This document shows positions 20,595 through 33,547 of a stretch of DNA of 64,000 nucleotides, one piece after another (the first letter of the stretch is position 1; each line of letters starts with the position of its first letter). This stretch comes from an uncultured Pelagibacteraceae bacterium (GTDB lineage: Bacteria; Pseudomonadota; Alphaproteobacteria; Pelagibacterales; Pelagibacteraceae), in NCBI GenBank assembly GCA_902574035.1, contig CACGMC010000001.1, positions 1 to 64,000 of the forward strand, given 5' to 3'. Below the pieces are notes generated by a model. That model searched no databases, was not told the origin of the DNA, and saw nothing but the letters and a program-made list of their open reading frames with translations. The position numbers were made by a program, and so were the translations under genes.

Positions 20595-21079
20595 AAATAA
20601 AAGTTGGAGAAAAACTACCAAGTTCAGAATTATTTTATCTTGATAAAAATAATGATGTCAAAAAAGTTGATATTTTAGATTTATGTAAAGACAATAAAAC
20701 TATAATTTTAGGTATGCCAGGTGCATTTACCAAAACATGTTCAGCAATCCATTTGCCTGGTTTTGTAAAAAATTTTGATCTAGCCTTAAAAAAAGGAGTA
20801 ACAAAAATTATTTGTATAGCAGTAAATGATCCTAATGTTATGAAAGCGTGGGGTGAAAATCAAAACGTAGAAACAAAAATTTTGATGGCTGGTGACCCTT
20901 TTTTAAAATTTACGAAATCTATAGGCGCTGAAGTTGACAAATCAGCTAAAGGATTAGGTGTGAGATCAAATCGGTATACAATGCTGGTAGAAAATCAGGT
21001 TTTAAAAAAAGTAGTAGAAGAAAAAGAAACAGCTACTTGTGAATTATCTGGAGCAGAAAATTTTTTGAAATCTATTTAG
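20591..21079 (+). CDS. Peroxiredoxin (Prx5-like/redoxin)
   Basis: MPGAFTKTCSAIHLPGF, RSNRYTMLVE motifs. Confidence 0.9.
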   Translation: MKIKVGEKLPSSELFYLDKNNDVKKVDILDLCKDNKTIILGMPGAFTKTCSAIHLPGFVKNFDLALKKGVTKIICIAVNDPNVMKAWGENQNVETKILMAGDPFLKFTKSIGAEVDKSAKGLGVRSNRYTMLVENQVLKKVVEEKETATCELSGAENFLKSI

Positions 21080-21494
21080 CTTTTGAAACAGCTAACTCGT
21101 CCGCTAAATTATTTAGTTTATTTCCTGCATGCGCTTTAACCCATTTCCAGCTTACCTCGTGTTTTTGGCAGCAATTATCTAATTTAACCCATAGATCTTT
21201 ATTTTTAACTGGTTTTTTATTTGAACTTTTCCAATTATTTAATTTCCATTTTTTTATCCAATCAGTTATCCCATCTTTGACATATCTTGAATCTGTATAA
21301 ATTGTAATTTCTGACTTAGATTTAATTTTTTTTAAGGCCATTATAGGCGCCATTAACTCCATTCTATTGTTTGTAGTGTTATTTTCACTACCAGAAATAT
21401 TTGATTGATTTTCTCCTTCTATAATAATTGCGGCCCAACCTCCTTTTCCTGGATTTCCTGAACAGGCTCCATCAGTGTAAATTTTAAACTTCAT
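21072..21494 (-). CDS. rnhA: Ribonuclease HI
   Basis: IYTDGACSGNPGKGGWAAI, NNRMELMA, YTDSRYVKDGI. Confidence 0.96.
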   Translation of the reverse strand: MKFKIYTDGACSGNPGKGGWAAIIIEGENQSNISGSENNTTNNRMELMAPIMALKKIKSKSEITIYTDSRYVKDGITDWIKKWKLNNWKSSNKKPVKNKDLWVKLDNCCQKHEVSWKWVKAHAGNKLNNLADELAVSKAK

Positions 21495-22463
21495 TAAAAG
21501 AAATAATCCTCGTAATTTTTTGAATTTTTATGAAATTCTAATCTCTTTAAATATTCAATTGGATCTTTAATTTTGACCATAGCTCCTTCAACAGTATTAA
21601 GTGCATCAAATACCCTAGTGAGCAAAAACCTTAAAGCCGCTCCTTGAGATAGTACTTTTATATTATTTTTTTTCTTCTTCATTAAGCTTTCTTACAGAGG
21701 TATATCCATCAATGAAATTTTTTGCTTTTGTAACATTAAAACTTAGGTTTTCTTTTAATCCATCAAAACAAAGCGCGTTAAAACAAATAGCTATTTCAAA
21801 AGCAAAATAATCTTCACAAGAAAAATAAAAATCAATTATGCCACTAAATTTGTCTTTTAGAAAAAAAATATTATCATGAAATAAATCTGCATGGATGATC
21901 CCACGCGGTAAATCCTTTGGCCAATTTTTTTCCACATCTTTTAGATTTTCTTCTATTAATTTTGGAAGATCTTTATGAATTTTTGAACACTTGTCTTTGA
22001 CAGAGTCAAATAAATTTCTCCAAGATTTTACTGAAAGATCGTTTTCTCTTCTAAATTTAAAATCTTTGGTAAGCTTATGCATTTTTGCGACTTCAGCTCC
22101 AACAGATTTACAGTTTAAAGGAGACAAATTTTTCTTTGCTTTGCCCTCAAGAAAAGAGACTATCATTAATTTTTTTCCTTCAAAATCAGTAATTGTTTTT
22201 TTTTGTTTGTTTAATATTGGTGCAGGGCACTTAAAATTCGATTTATTTAACAAAGACATGAGATTAGAAAAAAACGGTAAATCCTCAGATTTTACTCTTT
22301 TTTCGTAAATTGTGAGAATAAATTTTTTATTTTTAACTGATAAAAAATAATTTGTATTTTCTATTCCTTCCTCAATACCTTTGAATTGATTTAATTTACC
22401 TAAATCATAGGAAGATAAGATTTTTCTTATTTTTTCATCATCAATTTTTGTATAGACAGCCAT
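21494..22463 (-). pseudogene. thrB: Homoserine kinase (ThrB type) split by a frameshift at an A8 tract; may be pseudogene, slippage-decoded gene, or sequencing error
   Basis: ORF 21663..22463 has the N-terminal and catalytic part (GIENTNYFL, GIIHADLFHDN) and stops at EEEKK*; ORF 21494..21682 carries the C-terminal LSQGAALRFLLTRVFD. Removing one A from the run (T8 on + strand, 21666-21673) restores one frame. Confidence 0.88.
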
Positions 22464-23407
22464 TAGCTTAGCTCTTTTGGTAATTTAAAAATTACTTTTT
22501 CTTCAGCAACCACTACCTCTTCTATAGATACTTTCCTATCTTTTTTAATATTATTAAGTAATGTTTGTACTAATTTTTCAGGTGCAGATGCTCCTGAAGA
22601 TATTCCAATAGTTGTAGAATTGTCTATTTCTTCGAATGGGATTTCTTTTTCCGAATGCATCAAATGTGAATTTTTACATCCTGCTTTTTTTGCCACCTCT
22701 ACTAATCTAACTGAGTTAGATGAGTTCCGACTTCCTACGACAAAAAACATATCACACTTTGAAGCTATTTTTTTTACTGCTGACTGCCTGTTGGTTGTTG
22801 CATAACAAATATCTTCCTTTATTGGACCTTTTATATTTGGAAACTTATTTTTTAGATAGCTGATTATTTCTGCCGTATCATCTACTGAAAGTGTAGTCTG
22901 CGTTATATAAGCTAAAGGTTTTTTAAAATTTTTAATTTCAAGTGCTTCAGCATCTTGTTTTGTTTCAATTAATTTTATAGATCCCTCTGGTAACTGACCC
23001 ATTGTGCCTATAACCTCAGGATGATTTTTGTGTCCAATAAGTAAAATTTCAAAACCTTTTTTGTATAATTGTTCAGACTCCCTATGAACTTTAGATACCA
23101 AAGGGCAGGTAGCGTCTACAAAGGACAAATTCTTTAATTTTGCTTCTTGTGGTACAGACTTGGGGACACCATGTGCAGAAAAAATTACTGGTCTTTTTTC
23201 ATCCTCTATATCAGATAATTCATCAACAAAAATTGCTCCTTTATTTTTAAGCTCTTCAACAACTTGCTTATTATGAACTATTTCGTGTCTAACATAAACT
23301 GGAGATCCAAACTTGTTGATTGATTTTTCAACAATGTCTATTGCTCTTTTTACCCCAGCACAGAATCCTCTAGGTGATGCTAAATAAATTTTAAGTTCTT
23401 TTTTCAT
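22463..23407 (-). CDS. ispH: 4-hydroxy-3-methylbut-2-enyl diphosphate reductase
   Basis: ASPRGFCAGVKRAIDIVE, ATCPLVSKVH, SSNSVRLVEVA. Confidence 0.96.
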   Translation of the reverse strand: MKKELKIYLASPRGFCAGVKRAIDIVEKSINKFGSPVYVRHEIVHNKQVVEELKNKGAIFVDELSDIEDEKRPVIFSAHGVPKSVPQEAKLKNLSFVDATCPLVSKVHRESEQLYKKGFEILLIGHKNHPEVIGTMGQLPEGSIKLIETKQDAEALEIKNFKKPLAYITQTTLSVDDTAEIISYLKNKFPNIKGPIKEDICYATTNRQSAVKKIASKCDMFFVVGSRNSSNSVRLVEVAKKAGCKNSHLMHSEKEIPFEEIDNSTTIGISSGASAPEKLVQTLLNNIKKDRKVSIEEVVVAEEKVIFKLPKELS

Positions 23408-24296
23408 TTTTTTCTAAAAGATATTCTAACAATATATGCGGAAAAGTAAGTGACGCCAAACCAATAAAAATCACCTTATAAATAGCCTCATCAAGCTTAT
23501 AAAAATTAATTAAAAAAAATATTGCAAGTAAAAATATTACTCCAGTAGCGATAGTTAAAGGGATGGCTTTTTTTATAAATTTTTTAAGCCCTGGTTTAAA
23601 AGATTTGTCCAGTTCAAAAATAAGAGAGATCGAATGTCTTATTGAGTGAAGAAAACAAAAATAAATAGTAAAAGCTAAAATAGGTGACAAAAGAAGATTT
23701 AATATGATTAAAGAAAAAAAGTCTACAATCATTACACTTTTTAGGTCTACATTTTCCTTTTTTGAAATATAAAAAGAAGATAAAAAACTTAGACATAACA
23801 TAGTAATTAAAAATTCATCTCCAAAAAATTCTGCTTCAAAAAAATTAAAATTTAGAATTCTAAATATTTCATTTGTTTCCTCTCTCTTAAACAATAATGG
23901 AGATATAATAACTGCTGAACCTTTTAAGAAGAATAAACACTCAGATATGAAAAATTTTTTTCTAAAAGAAAATACTGTGTCCTCTTTTCCAAAATGATAG
24001 GCTGCAACAAATAAAAATAATAATAAAACCGTATTGGGAAAAATTAACCAAAATATTATTATTAATAACGAAATGAATATATAGGCAAGATAAAAGGAAA
24101 TTGTTTTTTTATATCCAAATAATTTTAAAAGTTTCTTTCCTTTAATATTATCCAACGCTCCATGAGAAATTCCTAGAATTAAGATTAAAAACAAACAAAA
24201 TATTATTGGTTCAAAATTAAGCATTAGATAAAGCGGACTTATCAAAATACAAAAATTAAAAAATATAATTGAGTGTTTAAAGTTTATTTTTTCCAT
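23391..24296 (-). CDS. blh: Brp/Blh family beta-carotene 15,15'-dioxygenase (retinal-forming)
   Basis: GISHGALD, AAYHFGKED, LHSIRHS, FPHILLEYLL histidine motifs; multi-TM; adjacent to crtY. Confidence 0.88.
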   Translation of the reverse strand: MEKINFKHSIIFFNFCILISPLYLMLNFEPIIFCLFLILILGISHGALDNIKGKKLLKLFGYKKTISFYLAYIFISLLIIIFWLIFPNTVLLLFLFVAAYHFGKEDTVFSFRKKFFISECLFFLKGSAVIISPLLFKREETNEIFRILNFNFFEAEFFGDEFLITMLCLSFLSSFYISKKENVDLKSVMIVDFFSLIILNLLLSPILAFTIYFCFLHSIRHSISLIFELDKSFKPGLKKFIKKAIPLTIATGVIFLLAIFFLINFYKLDEAIYKVIFIGLASLTFPHILLEYLLEKNEKRT

Positions 24297-25363
24297 TAAT
24301 TAAATAACGCCTTAAAAAAAATTAATTTTGGCATTTTGCTTATAATGTTCATATCTTCAATTAAATTACTTTTATTAGATAAAAATTTTATAATTGTATT
24401 TGAGGAAGTTTTAAACATATTAAAAAATATTTTTGGCATTTTTTCAGGATGTTTTTCTAAAACTCTAAGAAATACTTTATCTAAAAACTGATATTTTTTT
24501 CCTATATTGAATGTTTTTACTTTATCAATTTTATCAATATTCTTTACAATATACTTACTATGTTCTTGTATATTTAAAAAGGTATAACCAGTGCTTAACC
24601 GGGTCATACCTCCAGCTGATCCAATATTAATTACTTTGTTATCATTTCTTAATGAGGGGTGAAAAAGTGGAATAGCACCTTTTTCAGTAAAATTTATTTT
24701 ATAATTTTTTATACCAAGATTATTTTTTATATAATTTTCTAATTGGAGGTCGTAATCCATAAGGCTCTGATCCTCTAAATCTGATAACCAAGTTGTTTCA
24801 ACTAAAGCTTTATTTTTACTGAATGGCAATGTGTAGAAAAAATGTACATCATTTTTCTGATCGCAATTAAAATCCATTAAATTTATTATTTCCTCATCAA
24901 AAATTTTCATCGGTGTCTCTATCTCAATACCTTGAAAGTGTTGCCACAAATTTGATTTATCAAGTCGTTTTTCAAAAACACTATTAAAAATTATTGAATT
25001 TTCTGATTTGATTTCGTTAAGATTATTATAAAAACTGACGTTAGAATTAGTAGAAAGCTTAGAATTTATTTTGTTATAAAATTTACCACTATCAATGCTT
25101 TGATAAGGAAATTTTTTATTTGTTAATTCATAAGAACTTTCTGAAGTATTAATTGTAAAATTATTCCAACTTTTAATTACACAATCATGAAAGTTATGAT
25201 CAAAGACCTTCCAGAAAGACCATGTTTTATCTCGTTTATAATCTTTACGATTTTCAATAATTGCAAGGGTTTTGTCATTCAACCTATTATTAATTTCTAG
25301 TTCATAAGCCAAAGACAATCCAGCACACCCACCACCAATTATTACGTAGTCAAATTCTTTCAT
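24296..25363 (-). CDS. crtY: Lycopene beta-cyclase
   Basis: DYVIIGGGCAGLSLAYEL, GIEIETP, GSAGGMTRLSTGYTFLNIQ. Confidence 0.92.
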   Translation of the reverse strand: MKEFDYVIIGGGCAGLSLAYELEINNRLNDKTLAIIENRKDYKRDKTWSFWKVFDHNFHDCVIKSWNNFTINTSESSYELTNKKFPYQSIDSGKFYNKINSKLSTNSNVSFYNNLNEIKSENSIIFNSVFEKRLDKSNLWQHFQGIEIETPMKIFDEEIINLMDFNCDQKNDVHFFYTLPFSKNKALVETTWLSDLEDQSLMDYDLQLENYIKNNLGIKNYKINFTEKGAIPLFHPSLRNDNKVINIGSAGGMTRLSTGYTFLNIQEHSKYIVKNIDKIDKVKTFNIGKKYQFLDKVFLRVLEKHPEKMPKIFFNMFKTSSNTIIKFLSNKSNLIEDMNIISKMPKLIFFKALFN

Positions 25364-26198
25364 TTAAATTTACTTCCTTTTCCAGAATAGTATGATTAGT
25401 ATGATTTTTGTAATTTAATTCTTTTACAAATAATAATTTAACAAAGTCAAAAAAAGATAAAAAAGTCTGAAATATTTTTTCAAAAATTGGTACATATATC
25501 TTTCCTGCATTATTATAATTTTCGATATTTTTTTGTTTGAGGATATAGTCACCAATTTTTCTATAAACGCGTCTAGCTACAATAACTGAAAATCTTGATT
25601 TTAGTGGAATACTACTAATTGAGTGAAAAGATTTATTATAAAATATTTGAGATTCATTTATTATTTCTTTTATTGAGGAAAAATCATGATTAACATATTG
25701 CCTATTACGCGCCTTATCTTCACAAACATCACGAGCGATATTTGTAAGCTGCATTGCAATTCCAAGATCAATAGCACCTTTAAGAGCTTCTCTATTATTT
25801 ACTTTTAAAATTTTTGACATCATCAAACCAACTGTTCCAGCAACTCTATAGGAATATATTAACAATTCCTTTTTTGAATTAATTTTAACTTTTTCTTCTA
25901 AGTCCGTTTGAACTCCGTTAAATAAGTCCATTACTACCTTTTTAGAAATTTTCTCTTCATTTATTATCGACCACATTTCTTTAATTATTGGGTTATTGTT
26001 ATTTTTATTGATAAAATCTTTTTTAAACTTTAAAAAGTTTTCTTTTTTAGTTTCCAGTTTTTTATCATCGTCAACTATATCATCTAAAGTTCTACAAAAA
26101 TTATATAAAGATGAACATTTATTAAATATTGGTTTTGTTAAAAAAAAACTTGCCCAGTAAAAAGATTTTGCGTGTTTTTTAATCAAATTATTCATCAA
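25350..26198 (-). CDS. crtB: Phytoene synthase
   Basis: LYNFCRTLDDIVDD, YSYRVAGTVGLMM, AMQLTNIARDVCED. Confidence 0.94.
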   Translation of the reverse strand: MMNNLIKKHAKSFYWASFFLTKPIFNKCSSLYNFCRTLDDIVDDDKKLETKKENFLKFKKDFINKNNNNPIIKEMWSIINEEKISKKVVMDLFNGVQTDLEEKVKINSKKELLIYSYRVAGTVGLMMSKILKVNNREALKGAIDLGIAMQLTNIARDVCEDKARNRQYVNHDFSSIKEIINESQIFYNKSFHSISSIPLKSRFSVIVARRVYRKIGDYILKQKNIENYNNAGKIYVPIFEKIFQTFLSFFDFVKLLFVKELNYKNHTNHTILEKEVNLNERI

Positions 26199-27661
26199 AA
26201 TAGCCTATCCAATACTTTAGCAGATGAGAGGACCCCGGGCATTCCTGCTCCTGGGTGTGTTCCAGCTCCTACAAAGTATAAATTATTAAAAACTTCTGAT
26301 TGATTGTGAAATCTAAAATAAGCTGATTGTGAGAATTTTGGCTGTATTGAAAATCCTGATCCATGTAAAGTTGCTAAGTCTTTTTCAAAATAATCAGGTG
26401 TTAAATAAAAATCACTTACAACATTTTGTTTTATCCCGGGAAGTACTGACTTATCCATTTTATCTAAAATTAGATTTTTAAATTTTTCTCCCTCTTCAGA
26501 CCAATTTATATTAGATAAATTATTTGGAACTGGAACTAAAACATAAAATGCATCTTGATTTTTTGGTGACATATTAGGATCTGTAGCGGATGGCCTGTGT
26601 AAATAATAACTAAGATCTTCAGATAGAACTTTTTTCTCGAAGATTTTATCTAAATGTTTTTCATAAGATTTACCAAAGTAAATAGTATGATGAGCTACAT
26701 TATTGTATTGTCTTTTGGATCCAAAATAATAAACAAATAACCCCATTGAATAATCCATTCTTTTCATTTTTTGTTTAAACAAAAAATTGTAATTATTTTT
26801 GGATTTTATCAAATTTCGATAAACATTCGGTGGATCAGAATTACAAATGACATAATCACAATTAATAACTTTAGAATTATTTATTTTAACACCTTGCACT
26901 TTACTACTGCTTGAAATTATTTCAGTTACTTCTGCATTTTTAATAATTTCTATATTTTCTTCTCTCATTAATTTTTCAAGAGCCAAAACTACATTTCCTG
27001 TACCACCCATTGCATAATGAATGCCCCATTTTTTTTCTAAAAATAATATCAAAGTATAAATTGAAGTTGTTGTAAAAGGATTGCCGCCAACTAAAAGAGG
27101 ATGCATACTAAATACTCTTCTTAGTTTTTCATTTGAAATATAATTTGAAACCAATTTATAAACAGATTTATAGCTTTTCAAAGATAACAACGAAGGAACT
27201 TGTTTAAGCATGAAAGAAAGATTGTTGAAAGGTTTATCTGATAAATCTGTAAAGCCCTTATTAAAAATTTTTTCGGTGAAATTCACTAAATTATTGTATC
27301 CCTCAAAATCTTTATCTGAAAACTTTTTGACTTCCTTTTCCATAGATTTCTCACTACCAGAGTAATCAAAAGTTTGCCCATCGCTGAATACAAAACGGTA
27401 CCACAAATCTAATGGCACTATTTTAACGTAGTCAGCAATTTTCTTATTAAATAGAGAAAATAATTCTTCGAAAAGATAAGGAGCAGTAATTACTGTTGGG
27501 CCACCATCATAAATAAAATTTCCTTTTTTAAATACCCTTGCTCTGCCACCTAAATCAGGATGTTTTTCTACCAAAGTAACATTATACCCTTTAGCTTTTA
27601 ATCTTAGAGATGCAGCTAAACCACCAAAGCCTGAGCCTATAACTATTATTTTTTTTGCCAT
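26195..27661 (-). CDS. crtI: Phytoene desaturase
   Basis: IVIGSGFGGLAASLRLKAKGYNVTLVEK, YDGGPTVIT, GAGTHPGAGMPGVLSSAK. Confidence 0.96.
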   Translation of the reverse strand: MAKKIIVIGSGFGGLAASLRLKAKGYNVTLVEKHPDLGGRARVFKKGNFIYDGGPTVITAPYLFEELFSLFNKKIADYVKIVPLDLWYRFVFSDGQTFDYSGSEKSMEKEVKKFSDKDFEGYNNLVNFTEKIFNKGFTDLSDKPFNNLSFMLKQVPSLLSLKSYKSVYKLVSNYISNEKLRRVFSMHPLLVGGNPFTTTSIYTLILFLEKKWGIHYAMGGTGNVVLALEKLMREENIEIIKNAEVTEIISSSSKVQGVKINNSKVINCDYVICNSDPPNVYRNLIKSKNNYNFLFKQKMKRMDYSMGLFVYYFGSKRQYNNVAHHTIYFGKSYEKHLDKIFEKKVLSEDLSYYLHRPSATDPNMSPKNQDAFYVLVPVPNNLSNINWSEEGEKFKNLILDKMDKSVLPGIKQNVVSDFYLTPDYFEKDLATLHGSGFSIQPKFSQSAYFRFHNQSEVFNNLYFVGAGTHPGAGMPGVLSSAKVLDRLF

Positions 27662-27676
27662 TTTATGTTGGCTATT

Positions 27677-28174
27677 TTAACTAGATTTCTTTTGAAGTGC
27701 TAACTTTGTTTCCTCTATACTTTGATTGTAAATCTTATCTAATTTACTTTTATCTAAAGAATTTAACATCAATTTCTCTATACTTTCAAAAGCTATATTA
27801 ACAGAGGCATTTTTTACGTCTTTAATTGCCTGGTTTTTTAATTGTTTAATTTTTTCCTCTGTATTTTTCTTTTTAATATCCATTTGTTGATGAAAAATTT
27901 CGTTTGATTTAATAATATTTTTCTCAGCAAGTTCATTGGCTTCTCTAATCATTTTTTGAATCTCAGACTTAGAGCCGACTATTTTTTTTTCATGTTCAGC
28001 TAGTTTATTTTTAGCCTCTTCTTTAAGTTTTTCAGACTCCTCAACCTGAATTTTTATTTTGTTAATATTTTCGTCTAATATATTTTTCACTTTTGAGGGA
28101 ATCTTAAAATATAATAAAAGCAAAACAAAAATAAAAAATGATATAGCTACCCAAAATGTTGCATCAATTGTCAT
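27677..28174 (-). CDS. atpF: ATP synthase F0 subunit b
   Basis: Single N-terminal TM plus long charged coiled coil; position in F0 operon. Confidence 0.85.
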   Translation of the reverse strand: MTIDATFWVAISFFIFVLLLLYFKIPSKVKNILDENINKIKIQVEESEKLKEEAKNKLAEHEKKIVGSKSEIQKMIREANELAEKNIIKSNEIFHQQMDIKKKNTEEKIKQLKNQAIKDVKNASVNIAFESIEKLMLNSLDKSKLDKIYNQSIEETKLALQKKSS

Positions 28175-28746
28175 AAGTATTTATCCATCTTAATTTTTGA
28201 AACTTCTTCTATTGATGCTTTAATACTACTATTGTTTAACTTTTCACCAGTCAAATTTTCAATAACTTTTTCAGAAATTTCCTCTGCAATACTATTGATC
28301 GATTTTGAAGAATTTTTCTTTAAATTTAAAATTTCTTTTTCTGCCTTATTTATTTCTTTCTCTAATTCTTTTTCAAATTCGTTCTTTTTTTTATTAATAT
28401 TTTTATCTAATTGTTTTTTTGACTCATTGATAATCTTGGCGACCTCTTTTTTCGCATTGGAAATCTCATTATCATAGTCTAATTTTTTTTTATCTGCCAA
28501 GTCTGTAAATTCTTTAGCTGCATTTAAATTTTCTTCAATTTTTTTTTCTCTATTGTCTAAATTATCTTTTATTTTTGGAATAAAAAATTTTGATAACGAC
28601 AAATATAGAGCCAAAAATATTAGAATTAACCAAAATGATTGTGAAAACCAATATTTAGAGTCCAGCTGAGGCATCCCCGCCTCAGCTGCAAATAAAAATG
28701 TTTCAAACCAAAATATAAAAATAATTAAAGGTATTTCTCTCCTCAT
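28171..28746 (-). CDS. atpG: ATP synthase F0 subunit b'
   Basis: GMPQLDSKYWFSQSFWLILIFLALYLSLSKFFIPKI; tandem b/b' arrangement. Confidence 0.88.
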   Translation of the reverse strand: MRREIPLIIFIFWFETFLFAAEAGMPQLDSKYWFSQSFWLILIFLALYLSLSKFFIPKIKDNLDNREKKIEENLNAAKEFTDLADKKKLDYDNEISNAKKEVAKIINESKKQLDKNINKKKNEFEKELEKEINKAEKEILNLKKNSSKSINSIAEEISEKVIENLTGEKLNNSSIKASIEEVSKIKMDKYL

Positions 28747-28754
28747 ATTTATTT

Positions 28755-28982
28755 TTAAAACGCAAATAAGATAATCAGCGCAACCACAAGTCCGAACAAA
28801 CCTGTCGCTTCAGCTAAAGCGAAACCTAAAAGTAAATTAGGGAATTGCTTTTGAGCTGCAGACGGATTTCTCATGGCTCCTGATAAGTAGTTACCGAAGA
28901 TAATTCCGATACCAACTCCAGCTCCTGCCAGTGCGATTGCAGCCAATCCTGCCCCAATCATTTTTGCCGCTTCTAACTCCAT
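28755..28982 (-). CDS. atpE: ATP synthase F0 subunit c
   Basis: GAGLAAIALAGAGVGIGIIFGNYLSGAMRNPSA...FALAEATGLFGLVVALIILF; internal start giving 75 aa. Confidence 0.97.
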   Translation of the reverse strand: MELEAAKMIGAGLAAIALAGAGVGIGIIFGNYLSGAMRNPSAAQKQFPNLLLGFALAEATGLFGLVVALIILFAF

Positions 28983-28996
28983 TTTTCCTCCTTTTT

Positions 28997-29731
28997 TTAA
29001 TGGTGAAGATTTAGTGCATCGTTTAAATAGATGCAGGTTAAAATTGCAAAAACATAAGCTTGTAAAAAAGCTACTAATATTTCCAAACCGGTTAATGCAA
29101 CCGAAAAACTTAATGGTAACCAACCACCCAGTAAACCTAAACTAATAACAAAGCTTCCAAAAACTTTTAGCATAGTATGACCTGCCATCATGTTTGCAAA
29201 TAATCTAACAGACAGACTTACAGGTCTACTTAAATACGATATAATCTCAATCACTGTAATTAACGGTAGCAATACAACCGGAACGCCTTTGGGTACGAAA
29301 ATAGATAAATACTTTAAACCGTGCTTAACAAATCCTATTATCGTTACTGCAATAAATATAAACACTGCCATTACAAGTGTAACAATAATATGACTTGTGA
29401 CTGTAAAAGAATAGGGAAGCATTCCCACCATATTACAAAGCAAAACAAACATAAATAGTGTAAATATAAAAGGAAAATATGGTTTGGCTTTAGATCCAGC
29501 TGTGTCACTAATCATTTTTGCGATGAAATTATAAAATATCTCTGCGACTAGCTGCAATCTGCTAGGTATTATTCCTTTTTTTTTTGATCCGAAATATAAA
29601 AATATACAAATTGACAAAGCGCTTATAAGCATAAATAAACTTGAATTTGTAAAAGATAAATCAACGTTTCCTAACTTAATCTCAGGACCAAGTCTGTAGA
29701 CTTGAAATTGATGCATCGGATTAGCTGCCAT
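28997..29731 (-). CDS. atpB: ATP synthase F0 subunit a
   Basis: LSRPVSLSVRLFANMMAGHTMLKV, LEILVAFLQAYVFAILTCIYLNDA. Confidence 0.97.
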   Translation of the reverse strand: MAANPMHQFQVYRLGPEIKLGNVDLSFTNSSLFMLISALSICIFLYFGSKKKGIIPSRLQLVAEIFYNFIAKMISDTAGSKAKPYFPFIFTLFMFVLLCNMVGMLPYSFTVTSHIIVTLVMAVFIFIAVTIIGFVKHGLKYLSIFVPKGVPVVLLPLITVIEIISYLSRPVSLSVRLFANMMAGHTMLKVFGSFVISLGLLGGWLPLSFSVALTGLEILVAFLQAYVFAILTCIYLNDALNLHH

Positions 29732-29746
29732 AATTTGATACTCCCA

Positions 29747-30028
29747 TTAATCTTTTTTTTGCATATTATTCGCAACTCTTATAACGTTAACTATTCCAGC
29801 AATTACACCTAAAAAAAAGAATGTAATAATAAACCAAGGTTTAGTATCAAACCAATTATCTAAAATAAACCCAATAATTGTCCCAACTACCACTGCGGCA
29901 ACTAATTCGGATCCAAGCCTAAAGGCAGAGCCCATAAAATGCCCTCTTTTATCCTCATCATTTGAATTATTTTTTAAAATTTTTTCCTTTGCAATTTTGA
30001 GGCGAGTTTTAAAATCTTTATTATCCAT
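29747..30028 (-). CDS. atpI: AtpI/AtpZ-family protein
   Basis: GSAFRLGSELVAAVVVGTIIGFILDNWFDTKPWFIITFFFLGVIAGIVNV. Confidence 0.85.
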   Translation of the reverse strand: MDNKDFKTRLKIAKEKILKNNSNDEDKRGHFMGSAFRLGSELVAAVVVGTIIGFILDNWFDTKPWFIITFFFLGVIAGIVNVIRVANNMQKKD

Positions 30029-33075: not shown

Positions 33076-33547
33076 TAATTAAATTTTCGAGTTTATTTTT
33101 CAAATTCGTATTTTTAATATTGTCTAATCTAATACTATATTTTTTTTTATCTTTTATTTCGATATGATCTTTATGATCTTTTTTCAATTTATTATAGTCA
33201 GTGTTCATTATTTTAATCTGTAAATTGTTAATAAAAGTATAACCGAAATGAGAGTTGATTTTATCAATAATGTTTTTCTTATTATACTCAATATCAATTT
33301 CTTTTCCATGGATCACATTAACTATTAAAGTTACTTCTTTTGAACCACCCTGAGCTTTTATATTAGATGGATAACAATTATTTGAAATTTCGTTACCAAC
33401 AATTTTAGTCCAATTATCAACAAGCGAGGATAAATTAAATCCATTTTTCTTTAAAATTTTTTTAATTTGCTGAGGCAAAGTGTTAGCTAATGGCCTAAGA
33501 CCTTGAATGAAGTTTTTAGTTAAACTATTATTATTTTTTTTATGCAT
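33053..33547 (-). CDS. dciA: DUF721/DciA family protein
   Basis: WTKIVGNEISNNCYPSNIK, INSHFGYTFINNLQI. Confidence 0.75.
   Translation of the reverse strand: MHKKNNNSLTKNFIQGLRPLANTLPQQIKKILKKNGFNLSSLVDNWTKIVGNEISNNCYPSNIKAQGGSKEVTLIVNVIHGKEIDIEYNKKNIIDKINSHFGYTFINNLQIKIMNTDYNKLKKDHKDHIEIKDKKKYSIRLDNIKNTNLKNKLENLINAFNKKK

Follow-up and report, generated by a model that had tools for sequence, protein, structure and literature searches.

The window, by which we mean the whole 64-kb stretch of DNA analyzed here, carries on its minus strand an unbroken run of genes in the order DUF721-dsbA-smc-atpI-atpB-atpE-b'-b-crtI-crtB-crtY-blh-ispH-thrB-rnhA (Table 1). Only 15 bp separate atpF from crtI, and 4 bp separate smc from atpI. 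An earlier note on this DNA had described the ten genes from atpI to ispH; its coordinates, strand, and overlaps (4, 14, 1, and 17 bp after crtI) proved right for all ten, and Pfam and NCBIfam profile searches confirmed the gene identities (ATPase_gene1, ATP-synt_A, ATP-synt_C, ATP-synt_B twice, crtI_fam, SQS_PSY, Lycopene_cycl, Blh (BCD), and LytB/IspH). The run is longer than previously described, extending through DUF721-dsbA-smc upstream and thrB-rnhA downstream. Short spacing is usual in this DNA, with a median same-strand gap of 0 bp and 79% of such gaps ≤20 bp, so the 15-bp atpF-crtI gap alone proves little. At the upstream end of the run, the divergent mutY and DUF721 genes overlap by 6 bp at their starts (33542-33547), and a promoter there must therefore lie within a coding region.

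Table 1. Genes and sequence elements of the F0-retinal run, with positions in the window unless a locus is named
Feature	Position	Strand	Remarks
atpI	29747..30028	-	ATPase_gene1
atpI synonymous-constraint island	29834..29890	-	codons about 47-65; putative promoter/regulatory element for atpB onward
atpB, F0 subunit a	28997..29731	-	profile matches
atpE, F0 subunit c	28755..28982	-	start at 28982; listed ORF begins at an upstream TTG
F0 subunit b'	28171..28746	-	profile matches
atpF, F0 subunit b	27677..28174	-	profile matches
crtI, phytoene desaturase family	26195..27661	-	TIGR02734, 513 bits
crtB, phytoene synthase	25350..26198	-	PF00494
crtY, lycopene cyclase	24296..25363	-	PF05834; under TIGR01789 cut-off
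blh, beta-carotene 15,15'-dioxygenase	23391..24296	-	PF15461 and TIGR03753, over cut-off
blh-end/ispH-start constrained element	23393..23474	-	putative ispH promoter, TTGGCG-17-TATATT
ispH (LytB)	22463..23407	-	profile matches
thrB, homoserine kinase	21663..22463	-	shortened here by frameshift
rnhA	21072..21494	-	run ends here
Inserted proteorhodopsins	L153 5043-5816; L172 13191-13964; L174 580-1350	opposite to atpF/crtI	

The profile searches found crtI, crtB, crtY, and blh all present together. Blh scored 186 bits against PF15461 (cut-off 28) and 188 against TIGR03753 (cut-off 95), and His-45, His-101, His-217, and His-221, which we take to be iron-binding, were invariant in 97/97 homologues. 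The FAD motifs of CrtI were fixed among 92 homologues, in CrtB, CrtY, and CrtI the key residues of the motifs were likewise fixed among homologues, and comparison with near relatives gave dN/dS values of about 0.04–0.19 from crtI to blh, indicating purifying selection. The fixed catalytic motifs and purifying selection suggest a pathway in working order. Of the 169 species of the genus, incomplete genomes included, 134 gave a hit for Blh and 127 for rhodopsin; one 98% complete congener (G192) has rhodopsin and does not appear in the list of Blh carriers. Carriage of such retinal genes by viruses was rejected, as an IMG/VR search found no related Blh.

No rhodopsin was detected in the window or in the whole assembly, which is 92.5% complete, and the usual rhodopsin neighbors trxB (best match 27% identity) and acs (best match 38%) are also missing from the assembly. 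In congeners, rhodopsin usually lies away from the retinal genes as rhodopsin-ferredoxin-trxB; at the locus of the relatives, acs is divergent from rhodopsin-ferredoxin-trxB-GST, with dksA, tolC, and recA beyond. An 18-kb recA-to-rhodopsin stretch from a close relative matches contig C6 of our assembly from the first base of that contig, at 87% and over the tolC-recA end only. Because the match stops at this first base, the rhodopsin locus is most likely located in a gap of the assembly, beyond the end of C6. We did not accept a true loss of rhodopsin from this genome, as trxB and acs are absent along with rhodopsin and the C6 match ends at its first base. The earlier note had remarked on the absence of rhodopsin from the window; this absence extends to the whole assembly, which is best explained by the gap.

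The same note expected crtE elsewhere if the pathway works; no dedicated CrtE was found in this genome or in the congeners sampled. The genome encodes two PF00348 enzymes (no more than two per genome in 15 congeners), neither of which reaches the cut-off of the CrtE model. The first resembles octaprenyl synthases. The second, which has its best score as a farnesyl diphosphate synthase, retains the tyrosine typical of FPP synthases, five positions ahead of the first aspartate-rich motif, an arrangement that predicts FPP under the chain-length rule. Since no dedicated CrtE was found, GGPP for CrtB would come from one of these two general prenyl synthases. An IspA-like synthase gene (L002 1411-2286, plus strand), whose product has a tyrosine ahead of its first aspartate motif, adjoins an xseB-like gene.

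Comparison of synteny across SAR11-like genomes gave a concordant result: order and strand were identical in 81/81 relative loci spanning atpB to rnhA, a set in which some genomes occur twice. The window belongs to a SAR11-type genome; among named records, those closest to it are single-cell genomes labelled uncultured Pelagibacteraceae, together with SAR11 cluster bacterium PRT-SC02, MED-G40, and SAG-MED05. The atpF-crtI gap measured 13–33 bp in 86 of 90 loci and 227 bp in one, and three loci have a rhodopsin gene inside it. The conserved F0-retinal gene order is more than chance. An assembly chimera at the atpF-crtI junction, named beforehand as a finding that would refute the linkage, might be suspected in a 12-contig draft; the 81 concordant loci rule it out, the same junction being present in dozens of single-cell genomes that were sequenced independently, and the probability of a chimera is negligible.

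In five genomes of a sister family within the same order, the locus reads mutY/DUF721-dsbA-smc-atpI-atpB-atpE-b'-b-thrB-rnhA-prx-thrC, with no crt gene, blh, or ispH between atpF and thrB. The crtIBY-blh-ispH segment was therefore gained in the family of the window or lost in its sister. The ispH-thrB adjacency, which we take to occur in other Alphaproteobacteria, may predate the crt genes. Rhodopsin was found in 22 of 24 genomes of the sister family (G037-G060) and Blh in 0 of 24; the CrtI-like proteins there are distant only and were ruled out as carotenoid genes by their 21–25% identity and non-carotenoid neighborhood.

Synonymous variation along the run was scored in 4178 windows of fifteen codons over fifteen genes (mean 1.01, S.D. 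0.22). The lowest value of all 4178, 0.24, was obtained in atpI from codon 48, within a constrained island whose 31-base core occurs once in the 64-kb stretch. A second island, with a value of 0.30 from codon 277, covers the blh 3' end and reaches the first ispH codons (0.27 over ten codons); a 39-base pattern taken from it has a single match in each of 120 loci, and the promoter-like TTGGCG-17-TATATT within it is our own reading of the sequence. The start of atpE has a 15-codon constrained stretch as well (0.40). Conservation of the protein as the source of the islands was ruled out (correlation 0.04), and recent recombination is unlikely for the blh/ispH island, which persists where both flanks have diverged. 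Rfam matched no known RNA family in the run, and neither island folded clearly better than its shuffles (z = −0.64 and 1.37).

The end of atpF, the site expected for a crtI promoter, was near average (0.84–0.87); the scan showed no constrained element before crtI, and no terminator-like site was found between atpF and crtI. At the level of sequence, looking for a promoter or transcript end at this junction thus came out in favor of the earlier note. However, a promoter in AT-rich DNA can function without being conserved, and the lack of constraint before crtI still allows one there.

The shared strand, the conserved short spacing, and the lack of a terminator between atpF and crtI are what is expected of a single operon, and the islands in atpI and blh/ispH, with none before crtI, point to one F0-crtIBY-blh unit. 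Our preferred reading, to which we give a probability of roughly 0.55, is that the retinal genes occupy a fixed address at which an F0 promoter inside atpI would drive crtI, crtB, crtY, and blh by read-through, with ispH partly separate, rhodopsin encoded elsewhere, and GGPP drawn from a prenyl synthase. Such read-through would give a steady, growth-linked supply of retinal for the distant proteorhodopsin, here presumed to lie in the assembly gap. The element inside the blh end would drive ispH and the genes that follow at least in part, and we infer a separate start for ispH-thrB-rnhA. The earlier description of the run as continuing into ispH therefore holds for gene order and need not imply co-transcription, as ispH probably has its own element.

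Our data also suggest that the retinal block appears to have been swapped between species at this fixed address, as judged from the contrast between the block and its flanking genes. When the window was compared with its nearest relatives, dS came to about 0.9–1.8 in smc and atpB and 0.2–0.6 from crtI to blh. One relative (L100) is 72% identical to the window in Smc and 58% in AtpF, whereas its CrtI is 94% identical; another (L167) shows the reverse, with 92% in Smc and only 69–74% in CrtB, CrtY, and Blh. In some species, Blh is roughly 50% identical, whereas the flanking neighbors are 81–87% identical. Loci L100, L167, L155, L156, and L176 were noted as cases of such exchange, involving either crtI-crtB-crtY-blh or blh by itself. 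High pN/pS has been reported for carotenoid and proteorhodopsin genes in a SAR11 genomospecies (PMC7318151).

Exchange of the crtI-blh alleles as a block is what would be expected if the genes were adjacent only passively in a compacted genome, the cassette having landed between F0 and ispH/thrB and being kept there by essential flanks suited to homologous exchange, with a weak crtI promoter inside atpF and no tie to ATP synthase. The abundance of gaps ≤20 bp in the window (79% of those on the same strand) and the uncoupling of crt from F0 in three species would fit as well. Yet the atpF end lacks a constrained element of the kind visible in atpI and blh, and the 13–33-bp spacing is kept throughout the genus, and we regard passive adjacency as rather doubtful. 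A genus-wide hard-wiring to ATP synthase, in which the unit would start from the atpI element, the blh element would start ispH, and retinal alleles, joined in one clade by rhodopsin itself, would be swapped in at this address, falls slightly short of an even chance in our judgment.

The three species in question (G024, G189, and G190) are the only ones found with rhodopsin beside crt/blh genes. In each, the opposite strand of the atpF-crtI interval carries a rhodopsin gene with leucine at the color-tuning position. Terminator-like inverted repeats, bidirectional in G190, separate this gene from atpF, and crtI is divergent from it. Because the closest kin of the inserted rhodopsins are those of the usual ferredoxin-trxB context, the simpler reading is that rhodopsin moved into the atpF-crtI site. 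The Smc tree groups G024 with G190 as sisters (SH-aLRT 100); in G024, a small CDGSH iron-sulfur-type protein, read from the sequence, is encoded between crtI and rhodopsin (L153 4629-4865). With rhodopsin and terminators splitting F0 from crt in these species, coupling of the two is dispensable.

The same loci bear on the suggestion that light or energy state regulates F0 jointly with the chromophore pathway, matching the levels of pump and synthase. The adjacency of F0 and retinal genes, and the presence of rhodopsin itself in the junction of three species, would be in agreement with it. Rhodopsin is normally elsewhere, however, the run is devoid of F1 genes, and in the three exceptions terminators split F0 from both rhodopsin and crt. 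Light- or energy-dependent co-regulation, toward which the earlier note had pointed, is unsupported, and we consider it improbable.

Parts of this arrangement have known counterparts. The cluster in the window shares crtI, crtB, crtY, and blh with the marine proteorhodopsin clusters (rhodopsin, crtEBIY, and blh) but has neither rhodopsin nor crtE and is joined to F0 and ispH. The congeners share the context of the rhodopsin-ferredoxin-trxB locus that we take to be that of cultured Pelagibacter (SAR11), flanked upstream by a divergent acs and downstream by GST and dksA; this locus is apart from the retinal genes except in the three species and is absent from our draft assembly. The F0 genes form the full set of the alphaproteobacterial split operon (atpI-B-E-b'-b) in the usual order, common to the sister family, whereas in the window the retinal genes follow instead of thrB. 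Shuffling and transfer of proteorhodopsin photosystem gene clusters have been described (PMC2889829). Retinal clusters and their transfer are thus already known, as are F0 operons; for the F0-retinal run, a search of the open literature found no published description. The run may be visible, unremarked, in annotated genomes of cultured SAR11.

SAR11 are among the most abundant cells of the sunlit ocean, and to our knowledge there is no settled view of how they control proteorhodopsin. Were the supply of chromophore linked to the housekeeping expression of ATP synthase, with rhodopsin transcribed elsewhere, the opsin gene alone would tune light harvesting. Further leads, independent of this one, are the lack of a CrtE, the pair of conserved elements within genes, and the swapping of retinal alleles in place.

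Finally, thrB carries a frameshift at a run of eight A (21666-21673, minus strand). Its product has 266 amino acids in the window, compared with about 311–323 in nearly all relatives, and the lost C terminus is legible in another frame; the frameshift may reflect a sequencing error, slippage, or a real loss.
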